A stretch of 64,000 bases of DNA from Rothia similimucilaginosa (GTDB lineage: Bacteria > Actinomycetota > Actinomycetes > Actinomycetales > Micrococcaceae): positions 1 to 64,000 of the forward strand of contig NZ_JAOVAM010000001.1 in assembly GCF_029850875.1 (NCBI RefSeq). Direction: 5' to 3'. Below, piece by piece: positions 7,657 through 16,133 of this stretch. Position numbers and translations under genes: made by a program. The notes beneath the pieces were generated by a model. The model did no database searches. It saw only the letters and a list, made by a program, of their open reading frames with translations, and had not been told where the DNA came from. How positions within the stretch are numbered: position 1 is the stretch's first letter; the number at the start of each line of letters is the position of its first letter.

Positions 7657-7668
7657 GGGGGGGGGGGG
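7657..7668. repeat. 12-G homopolymer
   Basis: Twelve consecutive Gs in the region upstream of tkt. Runs this long usually vary in length between cells through polymerase slippage. No promoter spacer or coding frame obviously depends on it, so an effect is uncertain. Confidence 0.8.
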
Positions 7669-15276: not shown

Positions 15277-15293
15277 GCTCCTGACTCGCAGAT

Positions 15294-15349
15294 AAGGTAC
15301 CCGCCCGGTGCGGAAGGCATATGCCTTCGGCACCGGGCGGGTACCTTTA
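15294..15349 (+). terminator. Terminator of the suf operon
   Basis: An 18-bp perfect outer stem (15294-15311 with 15330-15347) continues into an inner GAAGGC/GCCTTC hairpin, followed by TTTAT. It is one of the strongest hairpins in the window and closes the suf transcript. Confidence 0.88.
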
Positions 15350-15409
15350 TGCGATATCAGATATGTGAGCAGTGGATGCTTGTTCTGAGCAACGCCAATT
15401 TTTGCCACT

Positions 15410-15437
15410 TTGACAATGGGGGGGGGTCGAGTATATT
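15410..15437 (+). promoter_or_regulatory. Promoter with a 9-G run in the spacer
   Basis: The -35 TTGACA (15410-15415, perfect consensus) and -10 TATATT (15432-15437) are 16 bases apart. Nine of the 16 spacer bases are a continuous G run (15418-15426). The transcript would start near 15445 and give a leader of about 70 bases to the lipoprotein gene. Loss or gain of single Gs would change the spacing to 15, 17 or 18, which strongly changes sigma-70 type promoter strength. Confidence 0.75.
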
Positions 15438-15513
15438 TCCTTGTGAATCATCCACCCACTTTATATTGGTTTTCTTCATGCAACGGTTGCTTGAAGAAAG
15501 CCGAAAGGAAATC

Positions 15514-16068
15514 ATGGCACAAAAGATTATTGCCGCTGACGGTTCTGTCTACGTTAAGAAGAAGCCCTTCTACCTCCGTTGGTGGTTTATCACTCTCGTC
15601 ATTATTTTTCTTCTTGGTGGTTGCGCTTCAATGATGGGCGGCGGCTCTAAGAGCTACACCACGGTAAGCGCTCCCTCATCTCCTGCCGCTGCTAACTCAG
15701 CTGCTACGAGCGATTCTGCTACCGTGGACTCCTCTGCGGCAGAGTCTAATGCAAAGCAGAGCGATAGTGTACCGAGTGAGTACAAATCGGCATTGAAGAA
15801 GGCCGAATCGTACTCACGTACTATGCACATGTCCAAGCAGGGTATCTACAACCAGCTCACCAGCGAATTCGAACAGTTTACTCCTGAAGCTGCTCAGTAT
15901 GCAGTGGACAATATGAAGGCTGACTGGAATGCAAATGCTTTGGAAAAAGCAAAGAGCTACCAGAAGACGATGAACATGTCTCCTGAGGCAATCCGTTCTC
16001 AGCTGACTTCTTCTTTTGAAGGTTTCACTGAGGAAGAAGCTGATTACGCAGTCTCTCACCTGAGCTAG
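15514..16068 (+). CDS. Ltp-family lipoprotein (phage-exclusion type)
   Basis: Surface lipoprotein of 184 residues. A basic N-terminus and membrane segment (~20-36) end in the lipobox LLGGC with Cys37, followed by a Ser/Ala linker (~50-88). Two repeats of the host cell surface-exposed lipoprotein domain follow at ~90-137 and ~141-184; each has the pattern KAxSYxxTMxMS...QLTSxFExFTxEAAxYAV. In streptococcal phage TP-J34 the Ltp lipoprotein with such repeats blocks injection of incoming phage DNA; actinobacteria carry many relatives of unproven role. The start is ATG 15514 with AAAGGAA just upstream. Confidence 0.85.
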   Translation: MAQKIIAADGSVYVKKKPFYLRWWFITLVIIFLLGGCASMMGGGSKSYTTVSAPSSPAAANSAATSDSATVDSSAAESNAKQSDSVPSEYKSALKKAESYSRTMHMSKQGIYNQLTSEFEQFTPEAAQYAVDNMKADWNANALEKAKSYQKTMNMSPEAIRSQLTSSFEGFTEEEADYAVSHLS

Positions 16069-16083
16069 TTCAACATATGATTC

Positions 16084-16133
16084 AGAGAAGCCGCCCGGTG
16101 TGGAACACATTCCATACAGGGCGGCTTCTCTAT
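16084..16133. terminator. Bidirectional terminator
   Basis: AGAGAAGCCGCCC (16084-16096) pairs with GGGCGGCTTCTCT (16119-16131), with a further inner stem. It lies between the lipoprotein gene and the convergent alarmone hydrolase gene and can serve both. Confidence 0.8.

Follow-up and report, generated by a model that had tools for sequence, protein, structure and literature searches.

In the genome of Rothia similimucilaginosa, a run of nine G separates the -35 and -10 elements of a promoter-like sequence in front of ltp, a gene of a phage-type superinfection-exclusion family, and both the length of this run and the spacing between the two elements differ among three related species. These differences hint, although they do not yet prove, that cells may switch Ltp on and off at random. 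We consider phase variation of this exclusion gene through its poly-G spacer to be the best explanation for the locus, with roughly an even chance of being correct. All coordinates below refer to the window, by which we mean the whole stretch of 64,000 nucleotides that was analysed.

A run of nine G in the promoter spacer of ltp

The ltp gene (15514..16068, + strand, from an ATG at 15514 to a stop codon ending at 16068) encodes a 184-aa Ltp-family protein that is probably exported and membrane-anchored. Upstream of it, on the same strand, the hexamers TTGACA (-35 element, 15410..15415) and TATATT (-10 element, 15432..15437) are separated by a spacer of 16 bases, nine of which form an uninterrupted G run (15418..15426). 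The locus therefore has what we used to recognise the homopolymer-promoter class, namely a run of at least eight identical bases flanked by a recognisable -35 and a recognisable -10 element. Taken together, the two hexamers agree with the sigma-70 consensus at 11 of 12 positions. The original prediction had described this promoter as perfect, which is accurate for the -35 element, the 16-base spacer and the nine G, but not for the -10 element, which matches at only five of its six positions. When both strands and spacers of 15-19 bases were considered, 15410-15437 was the sole match of at least 11/12 in the window, the expected number per window being 0.25 (mean of 20 first-order Markov simulations). 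Long G/C runs are themselves in excess, with three runs of at least nine within the window versus 0.6 in the simulations; one of these is located at 7657-7668.

Just 3′ of the -10 element lies an imperfect palindrome, GTGNATSATNCAC (15443..15455, + strand), a putative operator that could reflect ordinary regulation. Just two of its positions vary among the three species, both of them symmetric. Allowing up to one mismatch, the window contains this single match, but chance alone predicts 0.99. Further downstream, folding indicated a possible 5′ leader hairpin (15466..15504, + strand) ahead of the ribosome binding site AAAGGA (15504..15509, + strand), which was read from the sequence and is identical in the three species. 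The folding z-score of this hairpin was -2.3 in the window and -1.5 in the relative G013 (two sequences folded). RNAalifold, applied to three sequences, found two-sided changes in 0 of 10 pairs, so a conserved RNA leader structure is a weak candidate that we mention only in passing.

Run length and spacing differ within the Rothia mucilaginosa clade

As the search set contained one genome per species, the window genome, R. mucilaginosa 141_RMUC (G013), G014 and G015 were counted as four species of one clade. Their identity to the window in the suf region is 97.8% for G015, 98.0% for G014 and 93.5% for G013. Both G015 and G013 carry ltp at the same site as the window, while G014 is without it: the alignment breaks between the flanks and no PF07553 match was found in this genome. 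The promoter reads TTGACA-AT-G9-TCGAG-TATATT in the window (spacer of 16 bases), TTGACT-TT-G8-CGAG-TATATT in G015 (spacer of 14) and TTGACT-G10-TCCAAG-TATGAT in G013 (spacer of 16). In support of the original prediction, the run comprises nine, eight and ten G in the three species (one genome each). With both run length and spacing differing among three relatives, the locus also behaves as expected of the homopolymer-promoter class.

In an alignment of the three species, the invariant columns amount to 42 of 56 in the promoter block, 39 of 52 in the leader and 115 of 125 at the start of the gene, whereas the interval from the upstream inverted repeat to the promoter has only 14 of 101. The bases beside the G run vary among the three species while the run itself persists. 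Because the promoter block is so much better conserved than the region upstream of it, and the number of G nevertheless changes, the promoter with its G run looks constrained while the G number is variable. Promoters usually work well with spacers of 16-17 bases and poorly with one of 14. Under this rule, the three sampled alleles, with their spacers of 16, 14 and 16 bases, would straddle the expected boundary between ON and OFF. The same alleles, each from one genome per species, could also represent ordinary divergence.

G-run promoters among Rothia genomes

A search of 35 Rothia genomes for TTGAC followed by a G run and TANNNT returned four matches, three of them at the ltp locus, and the reversed control pattern returned 0 matches in the same genomes. 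The fourth match, in G017 (L069, reverse strand, about 1530-1511), consists of TTGAC, then G11 and a weak -10 element, TAGGGT, and precedes a gene that, judged by eye, resembles one for a secreted surface protein (with no NCBIfam match). Near this site, CTTGCGAATCAT resembles CTTGTGAATCAT of the ltp promoter.

The genome to which the window belongs contains 31 G/C runs of at least nine bases, the longest reaching 25. For the 30 runs other than that at ltp, the best promoter score was 8/12 in 58 strand tests, which does not support the idea that poly-G promoters form a set across this genome. For ten of the 31 runs, a contig end is no more than about 100 bases away, as if the assembly had failed at difficult G tracts. 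Outside the clade, none of 11 ltp genes from nine Rothia genomes has a G/C run of at least seven near its start. Two other tracts were observed along the way. In G026, a degenerate ltp fragment is situated behind a run of 29 C (L082, about 1326-1608), and in G013 a G10 run within a 410-aa open frame (L038, near 1500-1516) is a possible coding phase-variable tract. This frame presumably encodes a ThiF/MoeB-like protein.

Ltp belongs to a phage-type exclusion family

The Rothia protein has a basic N-terminus followed by a hydrophobic segment up to LLGGC, then a linker rich in Ser and Ala and finally two Ltp repeats, encoded at 15778..15915 and 15922..16062 (+ strand; PF07553). The protein matches PF07553 with an E-value of 3.6e-46, the tandem repeats scoring 83.7 and 82.6 bits against a curated cut-off of 23.2, and PHROG 4980, named 'superinfection exclusion', matches residues 1-183 (E 3e-63). 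These repeats, together with the PHROG match over the whole length, bear out the original assignment to an Ltp-repeat family of the phage-exclusion type. No model in PADLOC or NCBIfam matched the protein. The only solved relative found, which supplies a sequence match to an Ltp structure, is PDB 4eqq (E 3.2e-30, profile positions 86-184). We take this entry, titled 'putative host cell surface-exposed lipoprotein', to be Ltp of phage TP-J34. The earlier description of the Rothia protein as a lipoprotein is probably right but falls short of certainty: all three orthologs retain the Cys of LLGGC, yet this residue follows an N-terminal stretch that is, by eye, unusually long and atypical, and a lipobox-like Cys occurs in only 11 of 75 ltp homologs (loose pattern).

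Phage relatives are numerous, with 84 matching records, 12 of which cover at least 80% of the protein. Those covering most of its length come from phages of Corynebacterium, Leuconostoc, Bifidobacterium and lactobacilli, and several of the nearest full-length ones carry annotations for superinfection exclusion or immunity. In six of the seven phage loci inspected (of the 84 records), an annotated integrase adjoins ltp. The gene is also common in actinobacteria, with matches in 13 of the 35 Rothia genomes and 107 of the 201 Corynebacterium genomes. One of the three annotated genes on the 2488-bp Kocuria palustris plasmid pKPAL2 (L318) likewise encodes an Ltp family lipoprotein. In PMC3952083, ltp is argued to be a moron that has spread horizontally, with members scattered across phages and bacteria. 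PMC11480721, a study concerned with the Ltp-like gp41 of a Cutibacterium phage, states that TP-J34 Ltp acts on the tape measure protein.

ltp is a stand-alone chromosomal gene

The ltp gene stands alone, with an inverted repeat on either side. The upstream repeat, which is terminator-like, separates the suf-type genes from the ltp cassette (15296..15345, + strand; opposite-strand self-match at 15286-15354), and an inverted repeat is present at this site in all four clade genomes. The repeat 3′ of ltp (16084..16131, + strand), equally terminator-like, was read from the sequence. A consensus scan of the window listed neither of the two. According to Pfam, one flanking gene, upstream, encodes an FeS_assembly_P protein and was recognised by eye as the end of a suf operon; the other lies on the opposite strand and encodes an HD-domain protein. 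As neither is a phage gene, a prophage remnant is not supported as an explanation (two flanking genes scanned). Adjacency to an integrase, a trait that is typical of phage members of the Ltp family but not required of bacterial ones, is absent from the same two flanking genes. A distant blastn search with the ltp cassette against phages gave 13 records, none of which covers 80% of it; among the matches listed, eight rows cover the coding sequence only.

The gene also stands out in its composition. Its G+C content is 48.8% versus 58.9% for the window, and its third-position G+C content is 53%, compared with 76-78% in two suf-type genes and 62% in the HD gene. This composition fits, without proving, acquisition from elsewhere. 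With its deviating composition, its own promoter, inverted repeats at both ends and no adjoining integrase, the Rothia gene fits the picture of a domesticated moron.

Repair background of the clade

A MutL model found no match in the three clade genomes tested (G014 not among them), versus 11 of 14 control genomes, whereas NucS was present in all three. In PMC11551767, the NucS of M. smegmatis is described as leaving indels of 1-2 bases unrepaired, and the authors link this to homopolymer phase variation. Because MutL was not found in the three clade genomes, NucS is present and the M. smegmatis enzyme spares such indels, slippage of the G run is plausible in these hosts, though solely by analogy.

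G runs near ltp genes in other bacteria

A species-wide scan counted 75 ltp loci, five of the initial 80 (L174-L178) having been dropped as weak or N-terminal matches. These 75 loci (383 kb) contain four G/C runs of at least eight in all, each located just upstream of ltp: in R. mucilaginosa, Corynebacterium oculi, Lachnoclostridium An181 and a Clostridium MAG. Such a run occurs in the 200 bases 5′ of the gene in 4 of 75 ltp loci versus 0 of 327 other long reading frames (Fisher p 0.001, or 0.006 minus the R. mucilaginosa locus), in a post hoc test whose controls are long reading frames rather than verified genes. The C. oculi tract is a C10 run with no clear promoter around it, and that of the Clostridium MAG is a G8 run at the ribosome binding site of ltp.

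The Lachnoclostridium An181 promoter, TTGATT-TTTA-G10-TAAAG-TATAAT with a spacer of 19 bases, has the same build as that of Rothia, and the switch seems to have originated there independently, as judged from one genome. Only five G runs of at least eight are present in this 2.8-Mb genome. At two An181 sites other than ltp (L245, 1529; L249, 1456), runs of G10-G11 abut TATAAT/TATGAT after a shared AAATTTTC; one of these two runs precedes an apparent ABC transporter gene, and a set of switched promoters is possible. As An181 has MutL, the repair argument made for the clade is not transferable to it. A search with the An181 promoter matched 6 of 61 genomes, An181 included, with six partial hits in the five others; the four of these six that were inspected (L265, L266, L268 and L270) have no run of at least seven. 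Within the Lachnoclostridium family, nine of ten ltp loci are without a run of at least seven (whole stretches scanned, including the short L189 and L196).

For Corynebacterium, we inspected 70 of the 107 ltp-bearing genomes. In 40 of 40 stretches there is no run of at least eight anywhere (the reading frame was placed in 32 of the 40, and L306 ends at a contig end), and among 30 other loci a run was seen only in C. oculi, plus one doubtful G8. The C. oculi stretches L253-L263 contain many G/C runs of 9-11, several of them within reading frames, which may be a set of contingency loci. Because of these many other runs in the genome, the C. oculi ltp tract may be less special. No run of at least seven was found in any of seven phage ltp loci or on the Kocuria plasmid. 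In IMG/VR, two exact patterns gave no match and a protein scan no relative; a scan with the Lachnoclostridium protein yielded eight loci, none with a G/C run of at least eight. A general rule linking ltp genes to G runs is ruled out by the loci from Corynebacterium, other Rothia and the Lachnoclostridium family.

Proposed switch and alternative explanations

We propose that a phage-type superinfection-exclusion gene, ltp, became a stand-alone chromosomal cassette in the R. mucilaginosa clade, where it would be read from a single promoter, the one whose -35 and -10 elements lie on either side of the poly-G tract. Slipped-strand mispairing within a population would alter the G count by one or two, with a spacing of 16-17 bases being ON and one of 14-15 or at least 19 being OFF or hardly active. 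Cells of one lineage would then differ in transcription of ltp and in the amount of Ltp outside the membrane. The ON cells might block DNA injection by some tailed phages, with Ltp probably binding to their tape measure protein, a mechanism reported for Ltp of TP-J34, and such a mixed population could amount to bet-hedging.

Alternatively, the promoter might be real but unswitched, with the G run acting as a static spacer or protein-binding feature, expression being constitutive or set by a regulator at 15443-15455, and run length drifting neutrally. This would agree with the retention of the run in three species, with two of the three spacers being 16 bases long and with a conserved palindrome near the expected transcription start, even if one such match in the window is expected by chance. 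We nevertheless consider it unlikely, given that a sigma-70-type promoter should, by the usual spacing rule, poorly tolerate the 14-base spacer seen in one species, that runs of 8-10 G should be unstable where MutL is missing, and that the run is kept while the bases flanking it vary. Coincidence or an assembly effect, in which one of many long G runs came to lie in a promoter by accident and the lengths on record are sequencing errors, appears very improbable: long runs are indeed common in this genome (31 G/C runs of at least nine) and ten of them lie within about 100 bases of contig ends, but the ltp run occupies the same place in three separate genomes and none of the other 30 runs exceeds 8/12 as a promoter.

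A further question is what a switched Ltp would act on. The protein might be phase-variable but directed at something other than phages, having no more than the Ltp repeats in common with exclusion proteins and serving in the envelope or in interaction with a host. The frequency of ltp in actinobacteria (13/35 Rothia and 107/201 Corynebacterium genomes) is compatible with such a role, as is the G017 run in front of an apparent surface-protein gene, since surface variation generally may be the theme. However, superinfection exclusion or immunity is the annotated function of several of the nearest full-length phage relatives, six of seven inspected phage relatives adjoin integrases and the PHROG match spans the whole protein, and we regard a non-phage target as quite improbable. 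Phase variation of a phage-exclusion gene stays our preferred reading. Its broader version, in which phage-type exclusion genes have been captured repeatedly under slippable poly-G promoters and turned into a stochastic phage defence of the host, is more doubtful and is put forward tentatively; the captures would comprise those in the R. mucilaginosa clade and a Lachnoclostridium, and possibly those in C. oculi and a Clostridium.

Relation to known systems and significance

Homopolymer-spacer promoters, phase-variable exclusion and Ltp proteins are each already known. With Ltp of the Streptococcus thermophilus phage TP-J34, the Rothia protein shares two Ltp repeats, a probable hydrophobic N-terminal anchor and a small moron-type gene; it differs in that its gene is chromosomal, has no adjoining integrase or repressor and possesses its own G-run promoter, and in that its exclusion activity is putative. 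The porA and opc promoters of Neisseria switch by homopolymer length in the spacer and resemble the ltp promoter in having a one-base run between the -35 and -10 elements, with the spacing as the switch, but they drive other genes, whose products are Gram-negative outer-membrane proteins. In function, CwpV of Clostridioides difficile comes closest to the proposed system; its switch is an invertible DNA element and not a homopolymer. PMC4737114 describes CwpV as a phase-variable protein of the cell surface that keeps phages from injecting their DNA and is under an epigenetic switch. Like the system proposed here, it is a surface protein that the host encodes and switches, with an effect resembling superinfection exclusion, but it is a cell-wall protein and hence a functional analogue for which we claim no homology. 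Homopolymer phase variation in mycobacteria, as presented in PMC11551767, is similar in its NucS-type repair that leaves small indels, and concerns other genes. Among open-licence papers, searched by titles and the beginnings of abstracts, we found neither a phase-variable Ltp nor G-run promoters in Rothia. PMC11480721 was considered as a possible precedent, but no word of its text begins with homopolymer, phase, promoter or guanine.

If the proposed switch is real, a common mouth bacterium would encode a compact barrier to phage DNA entry that turns on and off at random and consists of a phage-type gene and a run of nine bases. The switch would provide actinobacteria with a phage-related contingency locus and would link superinfection exclusion with phase variation in a case other than CwpV of C. 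difficile. Judging by the Lachnoclostridium example, this combination may have arisen more than once.
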